Shown here piece after piece: positions 165-57,700 of a stretch of 64,000 nucleotides of DNA. Origin of the DNA: a virus. Positions within the stretch are counted from its first letter, which is position 1. The number at the start of each line of letters is the position of its first letter. The translations under genes and the position numbers were made by a program. The DNA is taken from positions 124,001 to 188,000 of the IMG/VR virus record IMGVR_UViG_3300035212_003113; one strand, 5' to 3'. Under the pieces are notes generated by a model. That model saw only the letters and a program-made list of their open reading frames with translations, did not search any database and was not told where the DNA came from.

Positions 165-165
165 T

Positions 166-609
166 ATGATAGATGCTAAGAGATTGCACAAGTATCTTTA
201 TCTTGCGGACGTGGCAGTCTGCTGTGATATATGCGGAAAAGATACTTGGACTTGCACCCTACCAGAGAATGAAATCTTCGTAGAGCATCGCTGGCACCAT
301 GCCACCTGTCCGCTTCAAGGAAGAGCAGATGTCTATAGCGACTGGGGAGGTCATCTTGATCCGGAAGTTGCCCCATGGAGCGGCAAGGTTGTGCTGAGTG
401 CTAGGTTTGACCAAGGCAAACGCATTCATACACTGTGGCTAGAGACACATGATTCAAAGCGCTATCGTATAGTTCCTATTTCAGAGTTCGGATTGTATGA
501 CGCAGACCCTTGCTTGCTTGACGGCAAAGATGTGCATATAGTCGGCAGCCTTGTTAACAACGAAACAATTTACTACTCAATGATGATGCAGAGGTTTGAA
601 CATGAGTGA
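166..609 (+). CDS. Hypothetical protein with Cys/His-rich N-terminus
   Basis: A 147-residue protein of unknown function. Near the N-terminus is a CCDICGKD stretch (about residues 19-26), followed by HRWHHATC (about 42-49). This Cys/His pattern could bind a metal, but it does not match a zinc-finger family I can name. The rest looks like a small beta-rich domain. The start ATG lies one base after the preceding stop. The 3' end overlaps the dUTPase gene by 8 bases, so the two are probably translationally coupled. Confidence 0.6.
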   Translation: MIDAKRLHKYLYLADVAVCCDICGKDTWTCTLPENEIFVEHRWHHATCPLQGRADVYSDWGGHLDPEVAPWSGKVVLSARFDQGKRIHTLWLETHDSKRYRIVPISEFGLYDADPCLLDGKDVHIVGSLVNNETIYYSMMMQRFEHE

Positions 610-1114: not shown

Positions 1115-1131
1115 AGGGACAAGGCAGGAAG

Positions 1132-14638: not shown

Positions 14639-15051
14639 TGATCCGCAGGATCAATGAGGAACTAGCAGCGGGCAAACTTCTGCCCGTTGTTTTTCCATTT
14701 CCACCATCAAAAATACCAGTTGATGACGCACTAAACGTACGAGCAGATGCAGAGCATGTTCTATACAGCTCCTTAGTCTGGCTAGTAGACGAATCCGCTT
14801 GGGGCATTTTTGAGTTCGATCAAACGATACATGATGCGCTAACTGGCTACGCTTTCCGTAACGGTGGCATGCAGAAGCTAGAATGTCTTCTTAGTAGATA
14901 CCCAGATGGAAGTCTGCGTATAAATGCTGGAAGAATCTTATCTCCTGCTATTGACATTATCGGACCTGATGTTTATAATGAAATGCGTGGGCGCGCAGGA
15001 CGCCTCAAAGATCGCTACCTGAAGTTTGAAAAGTATACCTTCATGGTATAA
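14635..15051 (+). CDS. Hypothetical protein
   Basis: A 138-residue protein without recognisable motifs; it looks like a compact alpha/beta domain. It sits between the deformylase operon and groEL and stops 10 bases before the groEL start. Its start overlaps the preceding gene. No function proposed. Confidence 0.5.
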   Translation: MMIRRINEELAAGKLLPVVFPFPPSKIPVDDALNVRADAEHVLYSSLVWLVDESAWGIFEFDQTIHDALTGYAFRNGGMQKLECLLSRYPDGSLRINAGRILSPAIDIIGPDVYNEMRGRAGRLKDRYLKFEKYTFMV

Positions 15052-15061
15052 TGGAGAAAAA

Positions 15062-22092: not shown

Positions 22093-22131
22093 GGTTCGCT
22101 CCCTCTAATTATTCTTTTCTGCAAAAAGCCC

Positions 22132-22323
22132 TCAAAATAAACCTAACTCAATGATAAGGTCCGCATCAGCAGAGCCATCCACTTGAAACAAAAAAAGCAA
22201 TATATGAGCAAGATTAACTCTGCGCAAATAGCTAGCGGCATCGGTCTCTGTGCCGATGGAAGTTAATTTCATTAATATCGCAGTATCACAAGCACTCACT
22301 GCATTAACTTCTAGCGGCGACAT
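22132..22323 (-). pseudogene. Remnant of a tail-fibre C-terminal domain
   Basis: A 63-codon reverse-strand frame whose product (ILMKLTSIGTETDAASYLRR, VNLAHI, ADADLIIELGLF) aligns with the last about 50 residues of the fibre at 22399-25647 ([37 protein letters not shown]). It has no Shine-Dalgarno site and only the fibre tip domain, so I read it as the leftover end of an older or displaced fibre gene. The 306-base gap it occupies, between fibre 2 and fibre 1, holds nothing else I can identify. It could be a donor cassette for tip exchange, but that is speculation. Confidence 0.7.
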
Positions 22324-22398
22324 GGATAAAATGCCCTTTACCGCGACTACAGATACCCGGATGATTTTATTAAATCACTGCGGCATGCATCTGCCTTG

Positions 22399-25300
22399 CT
22401 AGTAGAGATCTATCTCTACAACGAGGTCCGCAGCCAACGACCCGTTGGAGCAATCGACCTGCACCGAGAGATAGTCGAATTGCGCGAAATCCACGCTGCG
22501 AAGGTAGCTGGTGGCGCTCGTTGAGGTACCACTTATCGTAGCCTTCATCAGTGTCGCGACGCCCGTATTACCCATGCCCGTTGTCGACTTGTTGATCGTG
22601 ACCGTGAGGTCTTCGCCGACGCCGCCTGCGGTGCGGATATTAATGAACATGCCTTGCAAAATCGTCTTCTGCTGAAAGCGATAAAATACTTCATCCGGGT
22701 CCATGCTGTTGACAAGTGTTCCAGGCCACAGGTAATGCTTACCGGAGTCGATATTACCCCGTACACAAAACTGAATCGTTGTCGGAGTGACGTAAGTGGT
22801 AAACGGGTGCGTGCAGGCAGTCTTTGTAACAAGATCGGTTCCCGGCCCTAGCTGTATGCCGTTTGTTCCGTTGCCTGCCTGTGGTGCGGACTGCAGAATG
22901 TCGCCGCCCGCGTACCGCTGCACCCACGTCAACGCTGCTGTTCCGACGAGGCCCGTGGTTGTACACTCCCAGCCTGTATACGCAAAGGTGCCGTCGTTGC
23001 AGAAGGTATATGCACCGAGCGCCTGGGAGCCCGATGCCATGTCGCCTGCACGCGTCCATGCACCTGCGGCAACGACGTAGATGCCGTTATCCACAGGGTT
23101 AGTTTGGCCAGTGGCAAGCACACGGTCACCGGCAACAAGGGCTACGCCTTGCAGCGTGTAGAGGCCAGTCAGCGCAGTGCTTGACGTTGTCACGACAACT
23201 GGCAGCTTTAGCTGTATTGCAGGATAAGGCGAACCTGCAATGCTTGTTGAGCGCGTCTGAATTTGCGAACCGCTATTCTCGACATAGACTCCGACATAGA
23301 GGCCCGTCGAGGTCGCGGTCGTCGGTGCCGCGACGTATATGTTGAGGTCGCGCGTCGAGAGCTGATTTCCTGCGCCCGTCGACGGCTGGTAGACGCCGAA
23401 CTTGTTGCCCGCGCCGTTGCTACGGACGTTGAGCGTGCTGCCCTTCAAGCAGTTGAACGAGAACGTCGCGACGTTGAGAGCACCCGTGCCGTTAGAGAGC
23501 ACCCCGTAGACGTTCGTCGTCGTGCCAACAGCGAGGCCGCTGTTGTCAACGGTGAGGACCGACGTGCGAAGTTTGCTCGTCACGCTCGTCGTGCCGGGGA
23601 GCGCGATGCCGACGAGATTCGTCGTCGCGTTCGCTGAGTTGAGCGTGAGGCTCAAGTCCTCGACACGCGTGTTCTCGCCCATCGTCAGCAACGTGACCGT
23701 GCCGCCGGGGTTGCTCGCGCTCATCACGATCCGCGTCGTCTGCAACGACATGCCGCGCAGTGAACAGTTGGCTGGGATCGTGAGGCCCGTCGTCGCCGAC
23801 GCGAGCGTATACGTCCCCGGCATGATCCACACGCTTACGCCTGTGAGGGAGTTCGTGTTAATATGCGAGATTGCGGCTTCGACGGTGAGGAACGGCGGAC
23901 CGTTCACGGTGCCCGTCGCGTCGTTGCCGTTCACGCCGTCCACGATCAGTACGTTGCCGAGCTTCGGAGTCAGCGCGCCGCTCGGAAGAGCGATTGCGAC
24001 ATTCGACGCGCTCGTGATGCGGCCCTTAGCGTCAACAGCTATCTGAGCAACGCTGGTGCTGCTACCATAAGTATTAGCTGCAACACCCGTCGTTGTCAGC
24101 GTTGGGTTCGGATACGTATCGGTGAGGTCACCACCAGCAGGACCGCTTGGCGGGAGACTTGTTGGAGGCGCAGGGAACGCGATTGGGGTCGTCGTCGCGG
24201 TGGTGACGTGGCCCTTCGCGTCCACGGTGACCTGCGCGACGTTGGTGCCGTCGCCGTAGGTACCTGCGACGACGCCGCTGGCGTTGTGGGAGACGACCGG
24301 GTTCGCTCCTGTCGTCACGTTGATCGGGGCGGTGCCGGTGACTGACTGGATCGGAGCCGCCGGGAACGCGATGGCGACTTCCGTCGCCGACGTGACGCGA
24401 CCCTTCGTATCGACGGCGACCTGTGCGACGTGCGTACCGTCGCCGTAGGTGGTCGCGACGACTCCCGTCGTCGTGAGCGTTGGGTTCGGATAGCTGCCAG
24501 TCAGATCGCCACCCGCTGGGCCGTTCGGCGGAAGGCTCGTCGGAGGTGCGGGGAACGCAATAGGGGTAGTCGTTGCCGAGGTGACATGCCCCTTGGCATC
24601 GACCGTGAGCCTCGCGCTATTCGTACCGTCACCGTAGGTGGCAGCCACGACACCGCTCGCATCATGACTGACGGTCGGGTTCACACCCGCAGTGACGCTG
24701 ATAGGAGCAGTACCAGTGACCGATTGAATCGGTGAGGAGGGGAACGCAATCGCAACGCTACTCGCGCTCGTGACACGACCCTTGGCGTCGACCGTGACCT
24801 GAGCAACGCTGGTGCCGCTGCCATAGGTATTAGCGGCAACCCCTGTTGTCGTCAGCGTTGGGTTCGGGTAGGTGCCCGTGAGATCGCCGCCGGCGCTTCC
24901 GTTCGGAGGGATGCTTGCTGGAAATGATATCGGAGTTGTCGTCGCCGAGGTGATGCGACCTTTTGCGTCGACCGTCAAACTAGCACTATTTGTGCCGTCG
25001 CCATAGGTATTTGCGACCACACCTGTTGCCGTAAGTGTCGGATTTGGATAAGTCCCAGAGAGATCCCCTCCAGCAGAACCCAATGGAGGCAGTGCAGCTG
25101 GAAATGATATCGGCTCATTGCTTGCACTTGTAATTATGCCTTTTTCACTTACGGTCAGTATGGGCACAGTTGCGCCGTTGCCATAGGTACCTGCAACTAC
25201 TCCGCTATCCTGAATACTTATATTTGGCGTTACTCCGCCTGTAGATGATAGCGGGTTCGATGCACTCACGCCTGATACGCCTACTGTCGCGCCGCCGGCA

Positions 25301-25647
25301 AGCCACTTTAATCCGCCGCTTTCAAAACCTAGTACAGCTCCTTCGAAATAGCTATTTGTTGTTTGAATAGCGCTTGCAACTAATCCATCGCCTTGGTAAG
25401 ATGGATTTATAAAGTTAATTACTTCAATCTTTCTATATATCTTCCACAGAAGATAGATCTCTCCTGCCGGAGCCTCGAGCTCTCTTAGTATTGTGCTGGT
25501 AAGAGGAGATCCATACTCTTTATATTCTAGCCGACTATAAAGATCAACAATTTCCCCTGGTCTTATCTTTACTTTTCCAAGTAGATTGACATCAGATTTA
25601 GTTATATTCTTTACAGTAAATATCGGAAATACCGGATCAGTCCTCAT
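22399..25647 (-). CDS. Tail fibre protein 2 with tandem shaft repeats
   Basis: A 1,082-residue protein. Residues 1-120 are the same attachment domain as fibre 1. Residues about 135-560 hold seven repeats built on the patterns [12 protein letters not shown] and [11 protein letters not shown], a shaft repeat known from many phage fibres. A beta-helix-like region with [19 protein letters not shown] (pectate-lyase/parallel beta-helix style) follows, then a tip ending in [11 protein letters not shown]. The tip has a decayed second copy just downstream (22132-22323). SD GAGGGG lies in the 19-base gap after fibre 3. Receptor unknown. Confidence 0.88.
23990..25240 (-). repeat. Tandem coding repeats in fibre 2 shaft
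   Basis: Seven imperfect units of about 50-60 codons with alternating motifs (GGDL-G-YPNPTL, then TYG-GT-, then VDAKG-VTSA, then P-FP). DNA similarity between units is high enough to see by eye, for example the recurring cgtcgccgtaggt and gttgggttcgga stretches. Such arrays change copy number by recombination and set fibre length. Confidence 0.8.
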
Positions 25648-25666
25648 GAGTCGCCCCCTCTTCTAC

Positions 25667-28600
25667 TCACTTCAGCGGCTCTAGTAATAGCTCTAATGCT
25701 GCCAGTCTGGCTTCTAGATCCTGATTCTTCTGATGCAGCTCCTGGCATGCCTTTACGACGACGGGAAATAGTCGCAGTGGGGTTGCCTCTAATCTATCTG
25801 GATTATCTTTTAGGGCCAGGCCCATCCACTCCGCATTAGCAGCAGTCTGCGCGGCGTCGAGTTCCTGCGCAATGAATCCGCCCTCAAACTTTTCCTGCTT
25901 CTTGCTGCCGTCAGACACCCCCGGTGTCTGGCCGATAACATTGCCTTCGTCGTCGAGGACTGGAGAGGAGTACCACTCACGGCGGTCCCATTTGAACTGC
26001 ACAGGGCGCACGGTCGAGAGAAAATCTATGCCGAGCGAAATGTCTTGGATGTCAGCCTTGTCGCGCGCGTCGGAGATCAGCGTGATCGTGTTAACTGCGC
26101 AACGCAGCGTCGTCACCGACGAGTTGCCAAGCGTGATCTGATTTGTCGCACTAACGGCAGTCGGAGTCGCGCCATTTCCGATACAAGTCAGGTTCGTTCC
26201 TGATAGAAAAGCGACGCCGCCTGCCGTCTGCCCGAGCACGGTGTTCGTGATCTGCGAGCCCAGCCCTCTTCCGACGTTCAAGCCGTTGATCAGCGCATCA
26301 CCGCCTTGAACATCAAGCGTGGCCGCAGGGTTGACGTTCCCGCCAGTCGCATTTACCAGTACCCTGTTGTTTGACGTATCTACTGCAAATATGCGTACTG
26401 AACCGGCTGCATTTTGTACCTGAAATGCAGTGGTATTGCCCGTATTCGCTCTGGCTATAACAGAGCCAGCGATTCCAGCGTTCGCTCTTGCTCCTGCGAC
26501 AATCACTACGTCGCCGCCGTTTGTGTTTCCTACTGCTGCACCGGCTTGAGCAGTCAGAGTGATACTTGTTCCGTTGCCAGACCCGGCCGTGCCACCTGCC
26601 ACTTGCAGCGGCCCTGTAGGCGTCGACGTACCGACTCCGAGCCGTGAGTTCGTGTTATCCCAGAACAGCCTAGCATTATTCTGCGAATAGATGCCTGATG
26701 CGCCAGCGAAAACAACGCTGCCTAGGGTGAACGCGGTTGCCGTTCCCGTGCCGCCGTTCGCTGCACTGACCGTGCTCCATGAAAACGTGCCCGACCCGTT
26801 GTTCGTCAATACGCCCGAAGCGTTCGCTGCCGGGAACGTCGTCGTCTGACCCCGGATGGCGACGATGTCGCCATCCGCGCTGACTTGAAACTGACCCGTC
26901 GTGCCGACGTTGAGCGTCGATGACAACGTGCGCGAACTGGAGGCCACCGTCGTCGTCGTGTAATAGCCAGACGGGAGTGTCAGCCCGCCGTTCACTATCG
27001 TTGGCGTCGCCAAGATGGCAAAATTTGTGGGAGCTAGCAGAGCCGACGCCAGTGTGTTTCCGGTGACGCCCGTTCCGTACCGAACCATGACCGAGCTAGC
27101 AGTGTTCACGTCTCTGACGACGGTTCCAGCCGGGACAAACAGGTCAAACGACGCCTCAACGGTACACACTGCTGTCGTGGTCAGGGAAATAGTCGTACTG
27201 CCGAGCGTGAGAACGCCGCTGAACGTGACCGCAGGGACAAAGCCAATGCCCAACCGGTTGTTCGTGTCGTCCCAGAATAGGTTGTTGTTGTCCTGCGTAT
27301 AGACACCCGACGCGCCAGCGAAGACAACGCTGCCGAGGGTCAACGCAGGGCCGCTCGGTGCAGTTGCCCATGACAGATTGCCTGCACCATCATTAACAAG
27401 AGCTCCTACTGCATCTGGAGTAGGGAACCCGCGATCCAATACGCCGCCGCCTAGTAACTCGTAAGAAGATGCAGTTATCCTGCCGCCATTTGAAATAGTT
27501 ACTTGAGGAATTCCCGTCTCAGAAATATTGAGATAGCCGTCATCAATATTTACTCCTATGGACCAGTCTGCTGGAAATGCAGACTCGCTAAGTTTAGAGA
27601 CCAGGTGCAGGGACGTTGGGCCGAAATACCCATCTGCCCAGCGGTTTGCGTATGACCCTATTTCATATGCAAGATCGGTATCAGGAATGAGCGAGGCATT
27701 TATAGACGTAGTTGTGAGATTACTAAGTGCTCTGTTGGCTATGCTGGCATCGTCTATAGTATCAAGCGCACTCTGAACAGTGGTGTCCGCTGGAGACAAT
27801 ATGCCATTAAAGCTAGCTGTGTCAGTGTATATCGCACTCGCCGGATGATCTGGATCAAGTAGCCCAGAAAGATTACCGTGATCGCTTATCTGATTTATTG
27901 GCAACGAAGAGACTTTGCGCAAGTCTACGTAATTTGCGCCTGTATCGGTGGACACAATTCTACCTTTTATGGCATTTGTATAGGCATTTGCTGTTTGATA
28001 TATAACTGTGCCAATTATCACTATCTCTGCGAATGGCAGACCCGACAGCGTAGCAAGCTCGGTTGTAGCTCCGGAGCGGGCCGCACTTATGTTGTTGTAT
28101 TCGTTTATGCCCTGTATTGCTATAATTGGATGATTTATGTCATTTGTTGCAAAGACATGCACTAGCACGAAATTGCCGCTTGTCAGCTCTGTTAGCTGCC
28201 ACGTAGAGCCGGTCCACTGATTATAAGGAAGCCTCCCGCCAGCACCTGTATAGCCCGCAGTTCCAGAATAGATTATAGGAAATGTGTCGGCCGTCTTACT
28301 TCTCCAATTACCGGAGACTCCCTCTCTAAAGAAAACCGGTATGCTGGCAATTGGAGCAAGCTCCTGGGGGGCACCATCTGTTATTATATGCTTTATGTCT
28401 TCGTCATAAAACATGCCATTTCCGGCAGAAAACTGGCCATGAATTGCGCTGTCTCCGGCGCCGTCAACATTGAAATCGCTTAGTGCGAATCCATTTATAA
28501 AAGCAGCGCCCATGCTATTATGTAGCCACAGGTGCGTTCCGCCGTCCATGACAAGACCATGACGCTCATCTGCAACGTATATCGCCTTGTTGTTTCCGGC

Positions 28601-28912
28601 GTCCCAGTATACGATTGATACGATTGCATAGGATAAAATCAAGTCATCTGAAAATGTTTGTGTGGTCTCTAGCGTGTAGCCATCAAAATAAAAAAACCAC
28701 AGCCCCTCTGTGTCTGTTATAGAAGCAGATGCAGCGGACAGATGAGTATATTTCACTCCTTGTGCATAGTACTCGAAACGAGATGATGTCGGGGTAATCG
28801 TAAGAGTGCGACTTGTGTCATCAAACGACAGCGTCGTGTCGGCTCTGTTGGGAAAACCGGTTGGCTCCTTGGACATCTCATATATTGTCTTTACGTTTGG
28901 ATTGTGCGACAT
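25667..28912 (-). CDS. Tail fibre protein 3 with C-terminal intramolecular chaperone (peptidase S74)
   Basis: A 1,081-residue fibre. The N-terminal half is an unrelated structural domain rich in aromatic residues. The middle has GSVVFAGASGIYSQNN and DTNNRLGIG-like repeats. The C-terminus is the endosialidase-type chaperone that trimerises the fibre and cuts itself off: the Ser-Lys dyad S947 and K952 in SDARDKADI has the S-x4-K spacing of this family, followed by RPVQFKWD and GFIAQELDA, then a terminal coiled coil (ELHQKNQDLEARLAALELLL). It is translated from a GGTGGAG site in the 16-base gap after fibre 4. Confidence 0.92.
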   Translation of the reverse strand: MSHNPNVKTIYEMSKEPTGFPNRADTTLSFDDTSRTLTITPTSSRFEYYAQGVKYTHLSAASASITDTEGLWFFYFDGYTLETTQTFSDDLILSYAIVSIVYWDAGNNKAIYVADERHGLVMDGGTHLWLHNSMGAAFINGFALSDFNVDGAGDSAIHGQFSAGNGMFYDEDIKHIITDGAPQELAPIASIPVFFREGVSGNWRSKTADTFPIIYSGTAGYTGAGGRLPYNQWTGSTWQLTELTSGNFVLVHVFATNDINHPIIAIQGINEYNNISAARSGATTELATLSGLPFAEIVIIGTVIYQTANAYTNAIKGRIVSTDTGANYVDLRKVSSLPINQISDHGNLSGLLDPDHPASAIYTDTASFNGILSPADTTVQSALDTIDDASIANRALSNLTTTSINASLIPDTDLAYEIGSYANRWADGYFGPTSLHLVSKLSESAFPADWSIGVNIDDGYLNISETGIPQVTISNGGRITASSYELLGGGVLDRGFPTPDAVGALVNDGAGNLSWATAPSGPALTLGSVVFAGASGVYTQDNNNLFWDDTNNRLGIGFVPAVTFSGVLTLGSTTISLTTTAVCTVEASFDLFVPAGTVVRDVNTASSVMVRYGTGVTGNTLASALLAPTNFAILATPTIVNGGLTLPSGYYTTTTVASSSRTLSSTLNVGTTGQFQVSADGDIVAIRGQTTTFPAANASGVLTNNGSGTFSWSTVSAANGGTGTATAFTLGSVVFAGASGIYSQNNARLFWDNTNSRLGVGTSTPTGPLQVAGGTAGSGNGTSITLTAQAGAAVGNTNGGDVVIVAGARANAGIAGSVIARANTGNTTAFQVQNAAGSVRIFAVDTSNNRVLVNATGGNVNPAATLDVQGGDALINGLNVGRGLGSQITNTVLGQTAGGVAFLSGTNLTCIGNGATPTAVSATNQITLGNSSVTTLRCAVNTITLISDARDKADIQDISLGIDFLSTVRPVQFKWDRREWYSSPVLDDEGNVIGQTPGVSDGSKKQEKFEGGFIAQELDAAQTAANAEWMGLALKDNPDRLEATPLRLFPVVVKACQELHQKNQDLEARLAALELLLEPLK

Positions 28913-28928
28913 ATTTACTCCACCCTGA

Positions 28929-31900
28929 TCAGATTATCCACCAAGCGCTGCCATCCGATTGAATCTTTATTGCTTCATACTGTGTGCTGAGCGTGTATGT
29001 TGTCGCGCCGTCTATTAGTTCGGACGCATCAGCATCTACGGTGACAATATTCGCCGTGATGTCTTTTTTCTTTATAGTAAATATGCGTTCGACTGCTGAT
29101 GCAGCGGATGGCAGCGTCATCGTTATTGCGCCGGAAGAAGCATCGGCCAAAATTGTGCCATCGGAAGAGGCCAGAGTATAATTGGCAGTTTTGGTTGAAA
29201 TCGGCGCAGTGCTGTTCTGTGCGGCGCCCGAGGTCCATGACAGAGTTCCGCTTCCATTGTTTGTTAGAATAGAATTTGCAGAGCCCTGAGATGATGGGAA
29301 GCTATATGGGATATCGTTTATTCTAGTTAGATCCCCGCTAGAGCTTACCTGGAACTGCGAGCTGGCGCCGACGGATAGCGCCGAAGCTGGCGCGTTCGTA
29401 CCGACACCGACACGCGCATTCGTCGTGTCGACGTCGAAGATGGTCGAGCCCGCTGCGTTCTGCACCGAGAATGCGGTCGTGCCGTCCGACGTGTTCCTCG
29501 AGAGCACGACGCCGTCGTTGCCGACGCTGAAAGTGGTCGTGCCGTTATCACGGGCAAGGAAGATTGGATCGCCCTTGTCCATGTTGTCTGCTATCAGCGC
29601 CGCTGAGGCGTTGACCGTAGGCTGCGACGCGCCTGTGGTCTGCAAAGCGAACAGGCCGCCGATGCGGATACCGCTGTTGTTCTTCGCCATGCCCGTGACG
29701 GCTATGTTGGCACCAGTGCCGTCGCCTGTTGTGTTGCCGAAGACGGCGTAGTTGCGGGCGCCGTTCGACGCGAGGCCCATCATACCGATGTTGTGGCCAG
29801 ATGCCGTCGTGCCCGCAGCCGAGCCTTGCAGCGCGAAGTTGGCTTGTAGCGCCGAGACGGGGTCTTGTCCGCTGCCTGCGATCACGGTGCCGAAGCTGCC
29901 CGCGTAAGAAGTTGACGGCGTACCTGCGCCGCTCAAATAACCGATAACGCCGTAGACCGGGGCGACGACGCTCGCAGATACGCTTCCTTCAATGTACGAA
30001 ACGATGGTTCCGCCGCCAGGGGTCAGGGTTGCGTCGACGTTCAGCGCGTACACGCCACTGGCCGTCGAGCCTGCCTGCACGTCGACGACGTGCGCCGGAG
30101 TTGCTATGCCTACGCCTAGGCGATTATTTGAATCGTCCCAGTACAGGTTGGAATCCGATGATAGCGATGAAGTGCCGCTCCAAAATGCCACGCGCGTAGC
30201 TACGCCACTGCCTGTAACAGTACCTGCTGGTGACCATGACAGGTTGCCCGAGCCATCATTTGTCAGCGCGCCCGACGCATTCGCCGCCGGGAACGTCGTC
30301 GTCTGGCCCCGGATAGCGACAATGTCGCCCGAGGAATTAACTTGGAACTGAGAGGATGAGCCAACAGATAATAGCGATATAGGACTTGTAGTCCCTATGC
30401 CAACGCTCCCGGCATTTGTGATACGCACACGCTCAGTCGTTGAGCTGCCTAACGTAGTAAATCCATCAGTGCCGCTAGCAGTCGTGTGAAATTCAATTCG
30501 ACCGCCGCTCGCCGTCGACGTAAAAGCCTGCTCGGCCTTCATAGTCATCATCGCGCCGTAGTTAATGCCGCCCGTGGCAGTCCAACCTGCACCGAGCACA
30601 TTGATCATGCCGTCGCCAGCGCCGATCTGCGTCGGCGCGGCCTTCGTTCCTCTCGAACGCACACCGGCAAACTGACCACCGCGATATGACTCTTGAAGCA
30701 CGGTTCCAGCGGCGCCGTGCCCAAGCATCACCGCGCCTGCTGTCACGTCAGAACTGTCAAACGTAAACTGCCCGTATACAGTCGACGTTCCAACCAGAAA
30801 CACGGGCGATCCGCCCGACTGCTGGAAGCGCGCGATCTCCGTGCCGTTGACGCCGACACCGATAATATCGTTCGACGGCGAGAAGAAGCCGCTGTTCAGG
30901 TTGTCGCGGAAGGCGACGGCGGGAGCGGCGGCGCTACCATCGGGGATGGCGAGTTGGCCGCTGGCGATGTCAAGGGCGGCAACGGGGGCGTTGGTGCCGA
31001 TACCCAGTTTACCGCTGCCCGTGTTGTCCCAATAGAGGTTCGCATTCGACGACAGCGACGAAGCGCCATCCCAGAATGCCACACGCGTTGCAGTACCGCT
31101 GCCGGTGACCGTGCCACTTCCGCCCGCCGCAGCCCACGACACGTTGCCGGCGCCGTCTGTCGTGAGTACTTCACCGCTCGCGCCGTCTATCATTGGAAGG
31201 GTAAATGCATCGCTTATATTTACCGGAGTGGTGACGGAACCGATGGTTACCCCAGTTGTTAAATAATAGGCCGAATTATTTCCTATTTTAATTGGTCCGC
31301 CATCATTATCAATCCACAGCGGCTTCTCAATCGGATACTCGTTATTGGTATAGCGAAGCGAAAGACCAGGCGAGAATCCAAGTGACCCCTGAAGCTGTAG
31401 GAGTGCAGTGTCGTCGGTAGCGCCGAGCTTAAGATAAAGCGCAGGGTCGCCCAGATCTAGACCGAGTGCAGCCTCGTTGCCCCCTATAGAAGGGACCAAC
31501 GGCCCCGCCACAAATCGGGCATACTGACTGGATAAAATTCCTTCTACTCCAAGATTCTCGACTACCACTGCTCCAGTAGTCAGCCACTTCAAGGCAGAGC
31601 TGCCGTCAAAAACTCCTGCATTGCTAAATTGAATCGCCCGATCTGGACCGCCTGGTGCGCCACTTGCAGGCGAATCCCACGATAGATTTCCGGCTCCATC
31701 GTTCGTTAATACAGTTCCGGCAGAGCCCACGGCCGCAGGCCAGGCCGCATCAACGCCTCCAGACCCCAGAAACAAGGTTCCTATTGCAGAAATCTGAATG
31801 TCAGCAAAGCTTGACAGCGATATATTTTCTGTGCCAGAGACAGAAAACTCGCCATTCCCGGAATCCGTTGTAATCGTGTTGCCCGACTCATAAGCAGCCT

Positions 31901-32216
31901 GTAAGCTAGAGCTAGCAGAGGAAAGAAGGGCAAGTAGGCTGTCAACACTTATTTTATTTAACTCTGTAGAGGCATAATCTATGTACGCAATGTAGCCGTC
32001 TAGCAGCGGTGGTACTATTGGAGCCACCAGGAATTCGCCATAAAAGTAGCCATCTGCCGAGCCGGACAACCCCTGATATGACCCACCATCCAGTGAAAGC
32101 TCTATTCGGCCAAGGTCGTAGTTATACCTAATTATGGCCATACCGGCTTCTGGAACGCCTAGACCCTCGCCCGCCCTAAAGGTCAGAAAAGGAATTGTTT
32201 GTTTTTTCTGCGTCAT
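28929..32216 (-). CDS. Tail fibre protein 4 (first gene of the fibre operon)
   Basis: A 1,095-residue protein starting at ATG 32216 with GAGGAG close upstream; an in-frame start further out lacks such a site. The N-terminal about 60 residues (FLTFRAGEGLGVPEAGMAIIRYN) are a small adaptor-like domain. The shaft repeats LYWDDSNNRLGVGIATP-type units (at least four), the signature of long fibres that often end in S74 domains, but here the protein ends in a short beta cap (STQYEAIKIQSDGSAWWII) with no S74 dyad. It shares a near-identical block with fibre 3 (around 26820-26880 and 30275-30330). Confidence 0.88.
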   Translation of the reverse strand: MTQKKQTIPFLTFRAGEGLGVPEAGMAIIRYNYDLGRIELSLDGGSYQGLSGSADGYFYGEFLVAPIVPPLLDGYIAYIDYASTELNKISVDSLLALLSSASSSLQAAYESGNTITTDSGNGEFSVSGTENISLSSFADIQISAIGTLFLGSGGVDAAWPAAVGSAGTVLTNDGAGNLSWDSPASGAPGGPDRAIQFSNAGVFDGSSALKWLTTGAVVVENLGVEGILSSQYARFVAGPLVPSIGGNEAALGLDLGDPALYLKLGATDDTALLQLQGSLGFSPGLSLRYTNNEYPIEKPLWIDNDGGPIKIGNNSAYYLTTGVTIGSVTTPVNISDAFTLPMIDGASGEVLTTDGAGNVSWAAAGGSGTVTGSGTATRVAFWDGASSLSSNANLYWDNTGSGKLGIGTNAPVAALDIASGQLAIPDGSAAAPAVAFRDNLNSGFFSPSNDIIGVGVNGTEIARFQQSGGSPVFLVGTSTVYGQFTFDSSDVTAGAVMLGHGAAGTVLQESYRGGQFAGVRSRGTKAAPTQIGAGDGMINVLGAGWTATGGINYGAMMTMKAEQAFTSTASGGRIEFHTTASGTDGFTTLGSSTTERVRITNAGSVGIGTTSPISLLSVGSSSQFQVNSSGDIVAIRGQTTTFPAANASGALTNDGSGNLSWSPAGTVTGSGVATRVAFWSGTSSLSSDSNLYWDDSNNRLGVGIATPAHVVDVQAGSTASGVYALNVDATLTPGGGTIVSYIEGSVSASVVAPVYGVIGYLSGAGTPSTSYAGSFGTVIAGSGQDPVSALQANFALQGSAAGTTASGHNIGMMGLASNGARNYAVFGNTTGDGTGANIAVTGMAKNNSGIRIGGLFALQTTGASQPTVNASAALIADNMDKGDPIFLARDNGTTTFSVGNDGVVLSRNTSDGTTAFSVQNAAGSTIFDVDTTNARVGVGTNAPASALSVGASSQFQVSSSGDLTRINDIPYSFPSSQGSANSILTNNGSGTLSWTSGAAQNSTAPISTKTANYTLASSDGTILADASSGAITMTLPSAASAVERIFTIKKKDITANIVTVDADASELIDGATTYTLSTQYEAIKIQSDGSAWWII

Positions 32217-32401
32217 ATGCTCCTCAGCGCCAGGGGATCCAGCCCAATACAATGCACGGAGAACCATAGTTATTAAATGCGGGTGGTCCGCGAGCATTAA
32301 TTATATTTGCGTCAGATCGCAAACAAGCCGCGACCGCCGGCTGCAACTGAAGGCAACTAATTGAATAACAGTCTTTCTGATCTTTTCACATGGAGCAAAT
32401 A
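32217..32401. promoter_or_regulatory. Divergent intergenic region, likely promoters both ways
   Basis: This 185-base gap separates the reverse fibre operon from the forward gene at 32402, so transcription should start in both directions within it. It contains A/T-rich patches (around 32270-32310 and 32358-32372), but I cannot define a -10/-35 pair with confidence, and a phage sigma factor may recognise a different sequence. GGAG at 32392 serves the forward gene. Confidence 0.4.
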
Positions 32402-36100: not shown

Positions 36101-37795
36101 ATGAGCGCGCAATGGCTGCCGGTACTGGCAAGCCCTAAGACAAGTAACAAGCATCTCGGGAGAAAAGGTCAAGTGACTTTTTCCGGCGATGCCTTTGATA
36201 AACTTGTTGCAAGCGCAAATATCTCGCTGCAGAACTGGCCGCGCATGGTGCCGCACCGTGCCGAATTTCGCGTTCTAGTCGAGGCGACATTTCCTGGGTT
36301 CTGGGCGCGAGCAGAGGGCGTTGGCGTAGAGCTGGCTACGCGTCTTGTCATGGCCGCCGGACGTGCCGCCGAGACTGGTGCAGCAGTCAAGATCCCAGCT
36401 GGCGATGTTTTTCTATATAAAGCGAAGCAGCTAGGTTTTGCTCAGAAAAAGAACCACTCTTACTTTGCAGAGCGCGAGCGCGCTCGTCAGTTTGTTGCGC
36501 GACGTGGCGGTGGCAGCAGCGCATCACGTATCCTAAAAGATGCCGTAAATAAACTAGGCATGCAGAATCACTGCAGCATTGCCGTCTATGCTGCGCCAAG
36601 CGCCACTCACGTAGTGTTGATACCACATTCTGCCGACGCAGATGTCGGCAGAGTTTATACTGCCGGCCGCGGCGACCAATTCTATCTGGCTGCCGAAGAA
36701 GCAGGAAACAACAACAATCATGTGTCGCGCTACATGACCAGCGTACCAGTAGGCCGCTGGCAGTCTACCGCCTCTAGGCAGCAAATACTGCAGCTTATTG
36801 ATGAGCGCTGCTCACATGCTGGTTATCGCGAAATTCTAAAAGAGACCGTGATCGTCGGCATGGCGAGCGACTTTCGCTCAAACTATATTCAAGAGCACGA
36901 CTCGCAGCGAGTATTTGCGACTGGCGCCAGCATGCAGTTTATGCCATCCTGGTTGCGCAGTGCGTTGTTTCCAGAATGGTTTGAGATGGACTTCTCAAAC
37001 ATGCATCTTGCAATCCTCAATAGCCAAGCCGATCTCGGCATCAACCTGGATACTTCTATTTGGACCCAGATCATGGATACCTGGGAGACTGCGATCAATG
37101 CCGCAGGAGAAGCCCTGGGTCGCGAGGCGATGCTAGATGAGGCCGGAATAAAAGACCTGTTCGACGGCAGCATGAACAGCGGAAATAGCAAAACACTGTT
37201 TTTCGATACCTCCAAGGTTGATCGGACTGCCCTAAAGAAGGCGCTAAAGGTGAGCCTATATAGCCTGCAATTCGGGATGACAGCGCCAGCAGCGCGGCGC
37301 GGCTTTACTGGCGACTTGCTTAAAATGGGCTTCTCGCGCGGAGAGGCTACATTCCTGGGGAACCTTTGGTCACGCGATCCGATCCTGCAAAAGATTGCCA
37401 GTGGTATAAAGGCATACTGCGAAACACATGCCATTAGCCCCAGCGAATTGGCGCTCCGCTGCCAGGCAATCGAAACCACCCTGGTAAAAGAAATCTATAC
37501 AGTTGCACGCAGATTTAAGCGCTCAGACGTCTGCATCACCCTGCACAGCCATGACGGTGTATCAGTGTGGTCGCGTAGCGCGAGCGTAGGGCGAAAGTTT
37601 CATGCGCGCTGTGCGGCACGATGTGCGCGCCTTCTGGAGAAGCTAGGAATCCAGTCACGACTGGAGAGCAAAGGCTTGCCAAAAGAGGTCCGGACAGAAA
37701 AGGCACCCGCGCCCAAGTCAGAAGTGACGTCTTGTGTAGAACTGGCCCTGGTCACTGAGCGCGATTCACGTCCCGTGGCAACCGGCCCTCCTTAG
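36101..37795 (+). CDS. Divergent family A polymerase-like protein
   Basis: A 564-residue protein with spaced matches to the three palm/finger motifs of family A polymerases. Motif A: EMDFSNMHLAIL with D297. Motif B: K379-x3-K383-x3-Y387-x3-F391-G392, the same spacing as R754, K758, F762, Y766 and G of E. coli Pol I. Motif C: HSHDGVSVW with H484 and D485. Both catalytic Asp are kept, but the Pol I steric-gate Glu position is His, and the Glu after the motif C Asp is Gly. No exonuclease domain is seen; the first 290 residues are unrecognised. It could be a repair or replicative DNA polymerase, a primase-like enzyme or a single-subunit RNA polymerase. AGGA precedes ATG 36101. Confidence 0.55.
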   Translation: MSAQWLPVLASPKTSNKHLGRKGQVTFSGDAFDKLVASANISLQNWPRMVPHRAEFRVLVEATFPGFWARAEGVGVELATRLVMAAGRAAETGAAVKIPAGDVFLYKAKQLGFAQKKNHSYFAERERARQFVARRGGGSSASRILKDAVNKLGMQNHCSIAVYAAPSATHVVLIPHSADADVGRVYTAGRGDQFYLAAEEAGNNNNHVSRYMTSVPVGRWQSTASRQQILQLIDERCSHAGYREILKETVIVGMASDFRSNYIQEHDSQRVFATGASMQFMPSWLRSALFPEWFEMDFSNMHLAILNSQADLGINLDTSIWTQIMDTWETAINAAGEALGREAMLDEAGIKDLFDGSMNSGNSKTLFFDTSKVDRTALKKALKVSLYSLQFGMTAPAARRGFTGDLLKMGFSRGEATFLGNLWSRDPILQKIASGIKAYCETHAISPSELALRCQAIETTLVKEIYTVARRFKRSDVCITLHSHDGVSVWSRSASVGRKFHARCAARCARLLEKLGIQSRLESKGLPKEVRTEKAPAPKSEVTSCVELALVTERDSRPVATGPP

Positions 37796-37992: not shown

Positions 37993-38379
37993 ATGAAATT
38001 AGAACAAAGTCTTCATATCATGAATGAGTTAGAATTATCACGCTACTTGCTCGCCCGCGGGTTTCCCGAGGAGCTACCGTGTTTCTCTGTCTACGACCTC
38101 TCAATGTTCATGATGGGTCGCCAGGTCACGGAGGCTGAGATTATTACTGGTGGCAAGTCCGTATGCTTGTTTTGGTCATCTAAGAATCTAATTGCTACTA
38201 CAAATATTCTAGAGGAGCCGTGTGCAAGCACCGTTATTCTATCTTCTTTGCGTGGCAGCAATTTCTCTATCTCACTGAGGAGAGCCGGGTTCCACAGTTC
38301 TATTCATCCAATTCAATATACTCCAGAGTGGGTGGACTGTTTTGTGTTTTCGTTGGGCGCGGGGGTGAAGTATGAGTAA
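37993..38379 (+). CDS. Cassette small protein, copy A
   Basis: A 128-residue protein of unknown function, a clear paralogue of 39173-39559. Shared blocks are MKLE-x-LH near the start, CLFWSSKNL/CVFWSSGKL in the middle, SSLRGSNFS/SALRGSSFS, and the end SIHP-x-YTPEWV-CFVF. It overlaps the next gene by 8 bases, as copy B overlaps its partner by 4. Constant pairing with a tag-bearing glycosyltransferase suggests that it is a partner or acceptor-recognition protein for that enzyme, an inference from gene order only. No Shine-Dalgarno site is evident. Confidence 0.7.
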   Translation: MKLEQSLHIMNELELSRYLLARGFPEELPCFSVYDLSMFMMGRQVTEAEIITGGKSVCLFWSSKNLIATTNILEEPCASTVILSSLRGSNFSISLRRAGFHSSIHPIQYTPEWVDCFVFSLGAGVKYE

Positions 38380-39157
38380 GACGGCAGCGCAACAGTATGC
38401 CGAGCTTAAACGAAATAAGCTAAACGCCGCGCGTCAAGCAAAGCTAGAATTAGCTGCATCTAGAGCCAGAAGAGCATCTGTTGCCAAAGATGACAGCATT
38501 GTGCCTTCTGCATCTGCCAATACTATCGGGAAAAGGAATATGAAAAAGGTACCGCTTTACTTCAATTTTGTTGGATCCAGACGCGACATGCTTGACACAG
38601 CGATGGAGTCATATGATCGAGTCGCTGGCGATCTGATAGACGTCAGAGTGCACTATTCATACAGACCGCGCAGATTCACAGAATGCTTAAATGAAATCCT
38701 GAAGATAAATGATGAGCCATACTTCTTCGCTCACTTTGATTCTGTTCTGACAGATCGTAGCGCTATAGAGAATATCCTTGCACATGAGCCAGGTCCCGCT
38801 GGACTAGTAGCGCACTGCTTGATTGTGGACCTTCTCATGTTGGTCGTGCCGAAGGCCGTAAGAAGCATAGGCGGGTGGGACGAAGCATACAGCAATTCCT
38901 GCATGGATCTCGACCTGCAACAGCGGCTGCATAGGAGTGGCCAGACGATGCACATAATTCATTCTGATATAGAGCAGGGCCGCGGAGTTGATCATTTTAA
39001 TGCCAGTGCCGCTAGAAAAGATCCTGCTATGAGAAAAGTGTATGGCGTAACAATGCAGCAGGATTACGACCGATACTATGACAAGTATCACAATCGGTCG
39101 GACCCAGGCTATTTGCATGTGTGTGAGTACATTAAAAAAGAATTTGGCGACGGCTGA
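38372..39157 (+). CDS. Tag-glycosyltransferase fusion, copy A (GT2-like, GT-A fold)
   Basis: A 261-residue protein in two parts. Residues 1 to about 36 are a basic helix (SKTAAQQYAELKRNKLNAAR...) shared almost exactly with the protein at 39556. Residues about 55-261 are a glycosyltransferase domain with HFDSVLTD where GT-A enzymes have the metal motif, GGWDEAYSNSCMDLDLQQRL, the usual GT2 acceptor-side GGxDE...DxDL signature, and a late His region. Substrate unknown. The tag could target the enzyme to DNA, to the partner protein or to the virion; its Lys/Arg pattern favours nucleic acid or an acidic partner. Confidence 0.72.
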   Translation: MSKTAAQQYAELKRNKLNAARQAKLELAASRARRASVAKDDSIVPSASANTIGKRNMKKVPLYFNFVGSRRDMLDTAMESYDRVAGDLIDVRVHYSYRPRRFTECLNEILKINDEPYFFAHFDSVLTDRSAIENILAHEPGPAGLVAHCLIVDLLMLVVPKAVRSIGGWDEAYSNSCMDLDLQQRLHRSGQTMHIIHSDIEQGRGVDHFNASAARKDPAMRKVYGVTMQQDYDRYYDKYHNRSDPGYLHVCEYIKKEFGDG

Positions 39158-39172
39158 TCTGGACTAGTCGGC

Positions 39173-39559
39173 ATGAAGCTTGAAGATCAACTGCATTTGC
39201 TAGAGCCTGTCAGCCTTGCAAGATTTTTTTCTTCCTGCGGTGGGTTTCCATCAGATTGCCAGAGTATGTCCGCGCACGAGGTCGCAGTGAGCTTGCTCAA
39301 CAGAGAGCTGTACGAAGCAGAATGGTCCACTGGAAACATGGAAACTGCTTGTGTATTCTGGTCATCAGGAAAGCTACGCTTAATAAGGCGTCAAACTTTT
39401 GACACTTTTGTGCCGCATGTGGTGGTGGTATCTGCACTTAGGGGTAGTTCGTTCTCGGCAAATGCTGTGCGCCTTGGTCTTTTGCGCTCTATTCATCCTT
39501 TTGCATACACTCCTGAATGGGTCGAATGTTTTGTGTTTGGCGCTAGGGGGGAGGTATGA
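39173..39559 (+). CDS. Cassette small protein, copy B
   Basis: A 128-residue protein, exactly the length of its paralogue at 37993 and with the same conserved Trp/Ser and PEW blocks (CVFWSSGKL, SALRGSSFS, SIHPFAYTPEWV). Divergence is spread evenly, so the duplication is not recent. The 3' end overlaps the next gene by 4 bases (ATGA). Function unknown. Confidence 0.7.
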   Translation: MKLEDQLHLLEPVSLARFFSSCGGFPSDCQSMSAHEVAVSLLNRELYEAEWSTGNMETACVFWSSGKLRLIRRQTFDTFVPHVVVVSALRGSSFSANAVRLGLLRSIHPFAYTPEWVECFVFGARGEV

Positions 39560-40896
39560 GCAAGACAGCAGAGCAACGTTATGCCGAGTTCAAGAGGAAT
39601 AGGCTAAATGCCGCGCGACAGGCCAGGATAGAAATGGCCAAGGAAAGGATGCGCAAAGCCTCCGCCATTAAAAATAGCGCCATTTCTTCTAGTCAGACAA
39701 CTGTATTAGATAGCCCGCCCCAAGAGTCACCGATAGCAGTCAGCCATGTAGATAGTTCTTCTGCCGAGCAAGCAAGCACCATTAGTGATGGCTTGTATCA
39801 AGGCCTAGGTGATGAAGAATTTATAATACGACAATTCAAGGATTTCTGTGGTCGCAGTCCCAGTGCAGGCGAACTCAATGCCCATGTCGGTTCGCTTGCA
39901 TCCATGTCGCGATCCGCCGTCAATGACAGATTTGCTTACTGTGACGAGGTCGTGCGCCGTACATGGGCACACAAGAGTGCGCCATTTGATTCTCGATCTA
40001 CATTTAGCGGCTTCCATGGATTGCGAATTGCTGTTCTTCTTACTGGTCACCTAAGAACATTTAAGCAAACCTATCCTGTTTTGCGTTCGCAATTAATTAC
40101 CCCGGCATCCGCAGACGTTTTTGTTCATACGTGGGATACGCTAGGCATCCAGAGGCATGATCCTATATATGGTCCTATTCCTGATGACACTCTAAAAGTC
40201 GATATCTCTGAGATATATAGACTGCTTCCGGAGACGGTTGACGTTAGAGTAGAGGGCAATGCTGCATTTATCGCATGTGCGAAAACGCGCAACAGTCGTC
40301 CATATGTATTTGGATCAGGCAGTGGTCCTAATTCGAAAATGCTTAGCGCTAAGCCGGTTCTTATCGAGAGTCAGTTGTACGGCATATCTTCTGCTTTTAA
40401 GCTAATGGAGCAGCACGAAATAAAAAACGGCTTCAGATATGATCTTGTTATAAAGCTACGCTCGGACATGGAGGTTTTAGATTTTTTTCCTGATCTGGCA
40501 AATTTGAGCACAAAGGATCTTTGGGTTTCAAGCCCACCAGAGAATAATCACAACCACCCTGTATGCTTTGCATGCGAGAGAGGGCCGCACGAAGGGTGTC
40601 ATGCGACAGATGTGTGCGATACATATGCATATGGTGGCCGCGAAGCGATGGCACATTACTGCAGTCTGTGGGATAATCTCGAGACAGTATATGCCCGCAT
40701 GTGCGCAGAAAATAATGTTAATATTATGGATCCAACCGCATCTCACGGTCTTAGGGATGGGCACGTAGTTGTTCCAATTTGGAAAAATGGCGCTAGCCAT
40801 CGTCTGCATTGCTTTTATCCAGAAAGAATACTAAGACTGTATCTAGAGGGCTGGCATCTGAAAAAAGGACGCGTTTCGTGCAAGGTGAAGCGATGA
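39556..40896 (+). CDS. Tag-glycosyltransferase fusion, copy B
   Basis: A 446-residue protein. Residues 1 to about 36 are the same basic helical tag as in 38372 (SKTAEQRYAEFKRNRLNAAR...). A Ser-rich linker is followed by a helical module at about 75-135 that resembles DUF4214 (FIIRQFKDFCGRSPSAGELN). The catalytic part begins at IAVLLTGHLRTFKQTYPVL with DVFVHTWDTLG and later YDLVIKLRSDMEVL, a pattern seen in uncharacterised glycosyltransferase-like proteins of marine phages and bacteria. The catalytic half is unrelated to that of copy A, so tag and catalytic domain have been mixed. Confidence 0.68.
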   Translation: MSKTAEQRYAEFKRNRLNAARQARIEMAKERMRKASAIKNSAISSSQTTVLDSPPQESPIAVSHVDSSSAEQASTISDGLYQGLGDEEFIIRQFKDFCGRSPSAGELNAHVGSLASMSRSAVNDRFAYCDEVVRRTWAHKSAPFDSRSTFSGFHGLRIAVLLTGHLRTFKQTYPVLRSQLITPASADVFVHTWDTLGIQRHDPIYGPIPDDTLKVDISEIYRLLPETVDVRVEGNAAFIACAKTRNSRPYVFGSGSGPNSKMLSAKPVLIESQLYGISSAFKLMEQHEIKNGFRYDLVIKLRSDMEVLDFFPDLANLSTKDLWVSSPPENNHNHPVCFACERGPHEGCHATDVCDTYAYGGREAMAHYCSLWDNLETVYARMCAENNVNIMDPTASHGLRDGHVVVPIWKNGASHRLHCFYPERILRLYLEGWHLKKGRVSCKVKR

Positions 40897-53956: not shown

Positions 53957-54745
53957 ATGAACATTGACGGCACATACAAAGTAGGCAATAACAAGTATAT
54001 CTACCTAAACAGCCGAACAGGCGAGGGCTTTAGCAAGCTGATCGGCCTAATGCGAGGCTTCCTTAATTACCAGCTATCTATAATGGAGTTTCCGAGCTTT
54101 GGGCGGGACGATCTTGAGCAGGAGATGCTGGCACTGGCCATGGAGGCCCTGCCGCGGTACGACGAGAGTAAGCCTGCGAATTTGCTCACCTTTCTACAGA
54201 ACCACGTGAAAAATCGTCTGATCAATATGTGTAAGTTCTACAGTGAGAAGCGGCGCTGTGCTACCCACGTGGACAGCGGCATGCAGAAGGTTCGTTGTAA
54301 TTCGTGCCGCACGTTCTTCAGGGCTCGGAACGAAGTAGAGACCCTGTCCTGTGCAAAGTGCGGCGAGTCAGCTGCTCGAAATAGTGGGATGTGGAAGTTT
54401 TATAATCTGATTGCCATTCCTGGCCAGATTCCGGTTAATGACAGTGACGTACCAATTGAGCAGGAAATCGACCCAGACCTGTCGCAATTTACCGCAATAG
54501 GATGCGCTGGCGGCCCGATTACAGTGGATCATAACATTGATATTTCACGGCTTTTGGACAAGGAAGACGAAGTAAATAAATCAATAATCAATCTAGTTTG
54601 TCAGGGATACAGCCGGGCAGAGATCGCGATTAGACTTAATTTGAGTTCTTCAATTGTAAGTAAAAATCTGACGGATGTCTGCAACAGGCTAAGAAATAGG
54701 ATAACAGAGGATGGTAATGAATTTTCAGCTCTTCAAGACGGCTAA
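53957..54745 (+). CDS. Phage RNA polymerase sigma factor with zinc-ribbon insertion
   Basis: A 262-residue sigma-70-type factor. Region 2 is at about 50-98 (FGRDDLEQEMLALAMEAL, RYDESKPANLLTFLQNHVKNRL). A zinc ribbon, C114-x2-C117 and C132-x2-C135, is inserted between regions 2 and 4. Region 4 helix-turn-helix is at about 207-248 (IINLVCQGYSRAEIAI, RLNLSSSIVSKNL). It probably directs host RNA polymerase to phage middle or late promoters, like T4 gp55, which also lies near gp46/47. GAGGAAAG precedes the ATG, and the giant gene begins inside its 3' end. Confidence 0.88.
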   Translation: MNIDGTYKVGNNKYIYLNSRTGEGFSKLIGLMRGFLNYQLSIMEFPSFGRDDLEQEMLALAMEALPRYDESKPANLLTFLQNHVKNRLINMCKFYSEKRRCATHVDSGMQKVRCNSCRTFFRARNEVETLSCAKCGESAARNSGMWKFYNLIAIPGQIPVNDSDVPIEQEIDPDLSQFTAIGCAGGPITVDHNIDISRLLDKEDEVNKSIINLVCQGYSRAEIAIRLNLSSSIVSKNLTDVCNRLRNRITEDGNEFSALQDG

Positions 54746-57700
54746 GCTACAGAACGAGATCACCCTTCCCCGGACCGACTTCCTTGTAGAGGTATTGCGG
54801 AGCATCATTGCTCCGCTTTACCTTATGAATGACAAGGCTCATCCGGAGCTTAATGGCATTGCCGAAGCACTGGCCTCTTATTACGAAGAGAGTCAGCCAG
54901 GAGAACTGGTGTTCAGGAGCACGCGTTCGCGTGATCCATATGAGCTGTTCAATCCCAAACTATTGAATCTAAAGCTATCGGATGTCCGCGGCATTGCCTC
55001 CAAGGTCTCTAATAGCTCTATTGAGTTGACAGACAAAAGCATTATCAGTCTGATAGATCTCGTAATGCACGAGACGATCTACATTTGCTGGCTAGAGTTT
55101 TGTGCAATGCATCCCGGTCTTAGCTTTTTCGCTGGAGCCGAGGGCCTTTCTCCGGCAGAGCTGATTAAGACAGCCGTTGAGCAGGTAGAGGCGGGAGAAG
55201 AGGATGGAGAAAGCGAACAGCCAGCAGGCAAGGACAGGAATACGGGCAGGCGTATAAAAAGGAACAATGAAGTTCTAAAGACTAACCTTGGTCCTTCTTA
55301 TGATCAAGTTCGTAGAGCCAAGGCGGCATTGGCGTATCGCGCTGCATTCAATGGCTATACCCATAAAGGCTGGATGGACCTTATGCCATCGCACCAAGTG
55401 CAGACCCCCAAAGGCCTAAAGACCAAGGTGATAAGCACTGCTACCAGAGATGCGTTAAAAAATAAAAGCTTTAACATGATGGTGTTTTGGGCAGATAGCT
55501 CGGACCACGTCTCAAACGTAATGGCCAATATAGCCGAAAGGCTTGATCGCGGCGAGCGTCCGAACGTAGATGGCATGCCGCTGACTCGCAATCCTGTTGC
55601 ATCAAACGCAATTTACACAAATCCTGATTACTACTATACTGCTGGACAGAGCAAGGTCAGCCCCGCTGCCATCTATTCTGCATTCAACCTCGGGCACTCG
55701 GAGACAGTTGCCACACAGGCCGCAAACATGGGCCTGCTTAAGCACAAGCTTCTCTTTGGAGAAGAGGGTGACAGAGAGACGTTAATCTCTGGTTATGCAC
55801 AGTCTGCAATCGGCGCTCACAAGCGCATCCGCTCGGCATTCGGCAAGAATCCGGAACTCCTAAAGGATAAGCTGTCCTCTGTTCTAGTTGACGGCTTTAA
55901 TTTTCATGTCGAGCTGATGAAGAGCAATGGCGTGAATTCTCTTGAGTACCTGAATATCTTCAAGGCTCTGTCCAATAGTTCGTTTAAATCTTTTGCGGAT
56001 AGATTTCTCGCTCGCATAGTGGCGTCTTTGCGCACAGACTATGCATCGCTCCAACAGGCAAGCCAAGACTCATTCAACATTGTAGAAAAGCATATCTTAG
56101 AGTCCAAGACAGAGTTTGAGGGGCTTGCATCAGAGCTCCGGCACATGATGATTAGCGACGAAGACATGGCCAAGATCAATTCCGGCATGGGGTACTCTGA
56201 CTTCTTGCACTTCTTTGCGGAGATTGAGCTGAATCTGCCGAGCTATCTCCACTCCAAGTTTTCACAAGAAAACGTAAATAGCTTTTTTGCACCAGTTCCT
56301 GTTCTCAATACAGAGGCCTCTATAAAGCTCGGAGATAAAGAAATTAGGGCTAGCAACATGGTAGAGTCCTTCTTGGGCACCGCCAAAGAGAAGCAGAATC
56401 CCGATGAGCTAAAGTTTGAAAGTGCGGTCGCGCAGGCACTGAAAACACTTTCTTCGAAAAAAGTTAAGATGTCGCAAGATTCCATCAGTCTAATCCGCTC
56501 TGCATTAGAGTCGGTTTCTAAGCCGAACAGGCTCATGATGCCAGATGTTGATTTCGAAAGCGCCATCAAAGATCTTCAGACGCTGCAGAATGCGATCAAG
56601 CAGGGCGTAGAATTGGCTCCAGAGCAGGTAGACGCGATGCTAAAGGGCTTGCAGGTCCGCAATATCTATAGCAAAGAGTCGGCCCCAGAAGATATTCGCG
56701 AGGTATCTGCCAAGGCCGCAGCTGCCGTTGCAGATCACGGGTACAAGGATACGCTGTTCAATGTGTTTTCTCACTCTACGGTCGCATTGAGAAATCTATA
56801 CGTACAGACAAAGCAGCTCTCGATACTGCTCGCCAGCAAAAGAAAAAACAAAGAGCAGACGAGTGCTGCTCAAAAGCAGTGGAGAGAGGCTCCTAGTGGA
56901 AGCAGGGACCAGGGCATTGCATTCAAGATGCGAAATCTCTTAGAGACAGAAGGAAAAGACATAGATGCGCAGATCTCTGCTGCGCGTAAGTCGGTTTCAG
57001 TAAGACTGGAGCAGCTACTGCGAGGCGCCAAGGAAGACGAAAAGTCTTCTGCTTTGGCCGGAACAGGCCTGAAAAAAACTTCTGAGAAGGTCGTGGGAGA
57101 AATAAGGCTTGCTCTTGCCGAGGGCAAAACTTACAAAAAGCTTGATCGTGATGCAATGCTCAGTATTGTCAACGCTTATGACATGTCTGAGTCAGGTAGA
57201 CTTAATATTGAGGCGAGCCTGTTAGAGGGGATGCTCACCGCGCACGCTACCGCTGGGACACCGCTGTCTGCAGATGGCAAAATTCTAACTACTGCAGATC
57301 TAAGCAATGCTTGCCGCGCATTGGTGCAAAACAAGCAGACTGAGGCCGACTATGACACAATATCTGCATTTCTAGCGTCGTCATTCAGTGACGACTTTAA
57401 CCCAGATTTGCCTACGCAAACGTACTCGGACTTCTTTGGAGCTCAAAAGGAGTACCGAGGAACTCTTTCTGTTCTAAAGCCTGACTCAAATGAGCCAGAT
57501 GAAGAGGCAGATCCTATCTTGCACCTAGGCGTAGGTAGCGTGCCGTTTACTGTCGATACGGTACTTGAGAAGTTTATCGGAGATGTCTCTGGCCATGCCC
57601 TAAACAACCAACTTTTAACAAATGCCGTCTCTAGCCAGTTTTCTGCAAACAAGGAGAGGATTGAAAAAGAGATCGAAGAGAACTTTGAAGTAGATAGTGA

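Follow-up and report, generated by a model that had tools for sequence, protein, structure and literature searches.

Paired genes in a jumbo phage genome

Two tandem gene pairs were located on the plus strand of a 64,000-nt stretch of DNA (hereafter the window), which corresponds to positions 124001-188000 of a 371,675-bp virus record. Since this record carries a terminase, a portal, a head protease, a tail sheath, and a DNA polymerase III-type polymerase, it may be assigned to a contractile-tailed jumbo phage. The first pair consists of S1 (37993-38379), an open reading frame encoding a 128-aa protein of unassigned family, and T1 (38372-39157), which overlaps S1 by 8 nt. The second pair consists of S2 (39173-39559), a 128-aa paralogue of S1, and T2 (39556-40896), which overlaps S2 by 4 nt (ATGA). 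The block of four genes is flanked on both sides by gaps of approximately 200 bases. The original prediction, in which two adjacent units were each described as a 128-residue paralogue followed by a tagged gene, was exact in its coordinates, and the paralogy of S1 and S2 was supported by a local alignment score of 233 against a best score of 50 for shuffled sequences. The starts and stops of S and T overlap in both units, and the relative frames of the two overlaps differ (+1 and -1), which rules out a frameshift fusion of S and T and argues for translational coupling instead. The RNA structure of the 5' leader was unremarkable (z -0.86).

Regarding the S proteins, S1 and S2 are 39% identical, such that 61% of their residues differ, and both are slightly acidic (net charges of -3 and -2, respectively). 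No match to S was found in Pfam, PHROG, NCBIfam, PADLOC, or the PDB, and the predicted structure (pLDDT 44) was too poor for a fold search.

The genes in the vicinity include a number related to sugars, namely, a GT47 glycosyltransferase at 33488, another glycosyltransferase at 41096, an FAD oxidoreductase (DAO) at 41767, and an NAD-dependent epimerase at 42774. Other features of the window and record are described here as separate observations. A 564-aa protein encoded at 36101-37795 (plus strand) had no match in Pfam, PHROG, or GenBank phages, and its segments DFSNMHLAI, KVSLYSLQFGM, and LHSHDG resemble by eye the family A polymerase motifs A, B, and C. The window also encodes a complete Lon protease and a GroEL-type chaperonin (10540-12960 and 15026-16774, both on the plus strand) as well as a 2698-aa reading frame (54711-62807, plus strand) with no Pfam match. 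Long fibre-like proteins, encoded at 18559-32297 of the window (minus strand) and 241978-256149 of the record, share N-terminal (approximately 200 aa) or C-terminal segments and differ in their middles, and one long fibre-like protein of the record has a Peptidase_S74 domain. Short paralogues with internal repeats, which are roughly 50-70% identical, occupy positions 3-5036 and 10775-11484 of the record and are related to a protein encoded at 340323-341486.

A common N-terminal helix and two unrelated enzyme domains

The T1 and T2 proteins start with a basic helix of approximately 40 residues, hereafter the tag. As had been proposed, this helix is nearly the same in both proteins: 18 of the first 22 residues after the initial methionine are identical, and identity is 60% over 47 residues. 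The T1/T2 local alignment score of 144, which exceeds a maximum of 62 for shuffled sequences, derives entirely from the first 69 or so residues. The tag of T1 (residues 1-40; 38372-38491, plus strand) has a net charge of +7, and its only significant match in the 371-kb record was T2. The tag of T2 (residues 1-44; 39556-39687, plus strand) has a net charge of +8 and was predicted by AlphaFold2 to be a lone helix (residues 5-44, pLDDT 85-93), which is joined to the remainder of the protein by a low-confidence linker. The helix is not strongly amphipathic.

When the first 45 residues were removed, the T1/T2 score decreased to 32 against a shuffle mean of 33; therefore, the catalytic parts are unrelated, as the original prediction had stated. 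Its central proposal, namely, that a constant tag and a constant small protein are combined with an exchanged enzyme domain, describes a real arrangement in which the likeness of T1 and T2 is confined to the N terminus.

The catalytic part of T1 (38543-39154, plus strand) has, by eye, a GT2-like order of C-terminal motifs (HFDSV ... GGWDEAY...MDLDLQQRLHRSG ... H). The best matches of T1 were weak and comprised two viral proteins that read as GT2 enzymes, with single matches at E values of 0.24 and 0.6. A profile built from these two GT2-like sequences ranked T1 first among 1508 reading frames (E 2.6e-6), a value that has to be read with the selection of the profile after the matches had been seen. 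On the other hand, hmmscan gave no Pfam match for T1, and the GT2 model PF00535 was unmatched in the record at E<=1. The GT2-like assignment made earlier is, thus, borne out by the motif layout and the weak viral matches and not by the Pfam model, and T1 is probably, on weak evidence, a glycosyltransferase with a small GT2-like domain.

The T2 protein is composed of the tag, the linker, a DUF4214-like helical bundle, and a GT-A domain similar to GT6. The DUF4214-like segment (residues 83-134; 39802-39957, plus strand) had a Pfam E value of 5e-4 and a score of 20.5 bits, which is below the gathering cut-off of 23.2; it is helical in the structure model and lies between the tag and the catalytic domain, not within the latter as had been supposed. 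The catalytic part (40015-40893, plus strand), which represents the C-terminal 290 residues, matched PHROG 13607 (E 2e-13, residues 157-382). Relatives of this domain are also found in Synechococcus phages, and a profile search identified 64 in other IMG/VR contigs. Six residues (R167, F189, W193, Y295, D296, and D304) are invariant in 32 aligned sequences including T2, which carries the family pattern G..R, DVF.H.W, YD, R.D. An AlphaFold2 model based on the alignment of viral relatives contained the helix at residues 5-44, the linker, a helical bundle at residues 70-137, and a GT-A-like domain. In a Foldseek search of the PDB, the best matches were GT6 blood-group transferases (E 6e-6, with a modest TM-score by target of approximately 0.41), and the TM-score against a viral structure library was up to 0.78. 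There is, thus, good evidence from the profile matches and the model to predict that T2 is a GT-A, GT6-like glycosyltransferase that transfers a sugar.

Distribution and age of the cassette

The S genes and tags each occur twice in the 371,675-bp record, are paired in both cases, and have no further copies elsewhere in it. One other contig with the cassette differs by a single base in 14,869, and, thus, represents the same virus population. S and the tag were otherwise not found in IMG/VR, which was searched with peptide and degenerate-DNA patterns, or in GenBank phages; S was also not found in plasmids or, using one S pattern, in 84,980 prokaryote genomes. Since pattern scans need near-exact motifs, diverged relatives may have been missed. 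All of the non-self pattern matches were attributed to chance based on the reading frame or profile score. One candidate tag homologue (L128, profile E 0.001) was rejected as a product of ascertainment because it was the tag pattern that had retrieved this locus, and the matching stretch lay in a 43-aa reading frame. The S-plus-tag arrangement is, therefore, known from one virus lineage only, and the pairing of S with the tag rests on one duplication.

Of the 64 relatives that the T2 domain has in other viral contigs, 63 have no more than eight residues ahead of the catalytic domain, the remaining one has a long unrelated extension, and none has the tag. S was not found in the stretches around these relatives. 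Since nearly all of the relatives start directly at the domain, the tag looks like an addition made in this lineage. Taken together, the arrangement is real, well bounded, and unusual; the enzyme families are ordinary and the S-plus-tag cassette is new, with S and the tag being put on record as two orphan families.

The substitution pattern provides insights into the age of the duplication. In the tag core (residues 2-23), the non-synonymous and synonymous differences were 0.09 (pN) and 0.66 (pS), respectively. The corresponding values in the last part of S (residues 101-119) were 0.16 and 0.56, whereas synonymous sites were saturated and the non-synonymous difference was near 0.5 in the rest of S. 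Synonymous sites are, thus, close to saturation, whereas the amino-acid sequence of the tag core has been retained, which indicates an old duplication with constraint at the protein level.

Similarity at the DNA level is greatest at the junction of the S end and tag start (38299-38454 and 39488-39638, both on the plus strand and associated with repeats D1 and D2), at which it amounts to 73-82% and from which it falls off on both sides. At the junction, identical residues use the same codon in 18 of 31 cases against 11.7 expected (P=0.015, with small samples), and this excess was absent in residues 1-100 of S. Later partial gene conversion at the junction, or a constraint at the nucleotide level, is, thus, possible, and the conservation of the tag may be due in part to gene conversion.

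Possible functions and comparison with known systems

Our tentative preference, held with somewhat less than even confidence, is that S and the tag act as a pair, for docking or chaperoning, that brings the two glycosyltransferases to one substrate. An ancestral two-gene unit, in which S was followed by a tag-enzyme gene, would have been duplicated in tandem in a jumbo-phage lineage, and the exchange of the enzyme domain in one copy would have given rise to the GT2-like T1 and GT6-like T2 under the same N-terminal helix. S would be made just ahead of its tagged partner, to which it is probably translationally coupled, and we infer that it most likely binds the tag helix physically, as an adaptor or chaperone. 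Both enzymes would then be brought to one complex or acceptor, and successive or alternative sugars would be added. This shared acceptor would probably be a glycan or glycoprotein from the neighbouring genes for GT47, the third glycosyltransferase, the FAD oxidoreductase, and the NAD-dependent epimerase.

We counted in favour of docking the paralogy of S1 with S2 and of the two tags combined with the domain exchange, the gene overlaps, the constraint at the protein level, the pairing in both of two cases, the lone helix of the tag, its basic charge against the acidic charge of S, the T2 relatives that have neither tag nor S, and the neighbourhood of sugar genes. The charges of the tag (+7 and +8) and S (-3 and -2) permit binding and are no proof of it. 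Counted against docking were the single duplication behind the pairing, the limited amphipathicity of the tag, the codon excess at the junction, and the weak support for T1 as a glycosyltransferase. Since the tag cores hardly differ whereas 61% of residues are different between S1 and S2, coevolution between S and the tag cannot be judged.

Nearly as likely is a plain tandem duplication in which the enzyme domain was replaced by recombination inside the linker. The helix would then have been inherited with a structural or expression role only, S would act independently, and the junction would have been kept alike by gene conversion or as a recombination arm. The peak in DNA similarity at the junction, the local codon excess, and the presence in the same record of fibre-like proteins with common ends and exchanged middles are consistent with this possibility. 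However, approximately two-thirds of the synonymous sites in the tag core differ, and gene conversion at the tag, therefore, cannot be recent; moreover, amino-acid conservation is above what DNA similarity alone suggests, and the relatives of T2 lack the helix.

A broader version of the docking proposal, in which a transferable helix tag and a cognate small receptor constitute a targeting system and the cassette is reused so that unrelated glycosyltransferases gather at one site (the virion, DNA, or a glycan assembly site), appears to be unlikely.

Alternatively, the basic helix may tether the enzymes to DNA or the replisome, at which they would glycosylate phage DNA bases, in the manner of the T4 alpha-glucosyltransferase that binds the sliding clamp gp45. 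The basic charge of the tag and the co-purification of the T4 enzyme with gp45 (PMC13216743) fit this explanation, as does a match of the glycosyltransferase at 41096 to PHROG 2675, named as a DNA methyltransferase. We rejected the last as evidence of DNA modification because the best phage relatives of this gene are annotated as glycosyltransferases. The search for base-modifying enzymes covered HMUDK_hel, which was unmatched, and thymidylate-synthase relatives. A thymidylate-synthase relative of the dCMP-hydroxymethylase type is absent from the record, the sole relative present keeping the Asn of ordinary thymidylate synthase, as assigned by eye. Furthermore, the fold of T2 matches glycan-modifying GT6 enzymes, and its relatives are located in polysaccharide-type clusters. 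DNA targeting is, thus, less likely than docking or plain duplication, and we regard it as rather improbable.

Tag-mediated loading, by which the enzymes would enter the virion or be placed on fibres with S as a loading chaperone and would modify the capsid or fibre, is more doubtful still: long fibre-like genes, including one with Peptidase_S74, are located on the opposite strand just upstream (18559-32297), but no described loading signal was found by sequence and only two proteins in the record carry the tag. Immunity proteins are normally encoded downstream of a toxin and change with it. A logic similar to that of polymorphic toxins, with S as an immunity protein or antitoxin, is highly improbable because, despite the constant N terminus, exchanged C terminus, small partner gene, and overlaps as in toxin-antitoxin pairs, S is upstream of the enzyme and constant in both units rather than downstream and effector-specific, the family of T2 is an ordinary one of viral glycosyltransferases, and no PADLOC match was obtained.

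If S binds the tag, the cassette would represent a small natural plug-and-dock pair by which a virus groups different sugar enzymes and one answer to the question of how the glycosyltransferases of phages reach their substrate. Otherwise, the locus still provides a clear example of an enzyme domain exchanged downstream of a constant N terminus in a jumbo phage.

P-SSM2-type sugar/glycosyltransferase clusters have been described in cyanophages and jumbo phages (PMC7824862), and relatives of the T2 domain are present inside sugar-nucleotide/glycosyltransferase clusters in the cyanophages S-SM2 and S-CAM9. Similar to the present locus, such clusters contain several unrelated glycosyltransferases beside epimerase and sugar-modifying genes; however, they have neither a common N-terminal helix nor S, and the set here is smaller. 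T2 resembles PHROG 13607 and GT6-like GT-A enzymes in its profile match, all six invariant residues, and Foldseek matches to the blood-group enzymes, whereas relatives begin at the domain and T2 has 153 additional N-terminal residues (the tag, linker, and DUF4214-like segment). The T4 alpha-glucosyltransferase and gp45 resemble the proposed docking in that a phage glycosyltransferase binds a partner near its substrate. This is an analogy of working only; the T4 partner is a clamp, whereas the putative partner here is a 128-aa protein with no assigned family. In T4, binding to gp45 was not the main determinant of the share of alpha-glucosylation (PMC13216743). Phage fibres with constant ends, which are also present in this record, similarly exchange modules behind a constant terminus, but are structural proteins, whereas the exchanged modules described here are enzymes accompanied by a paired small gene.
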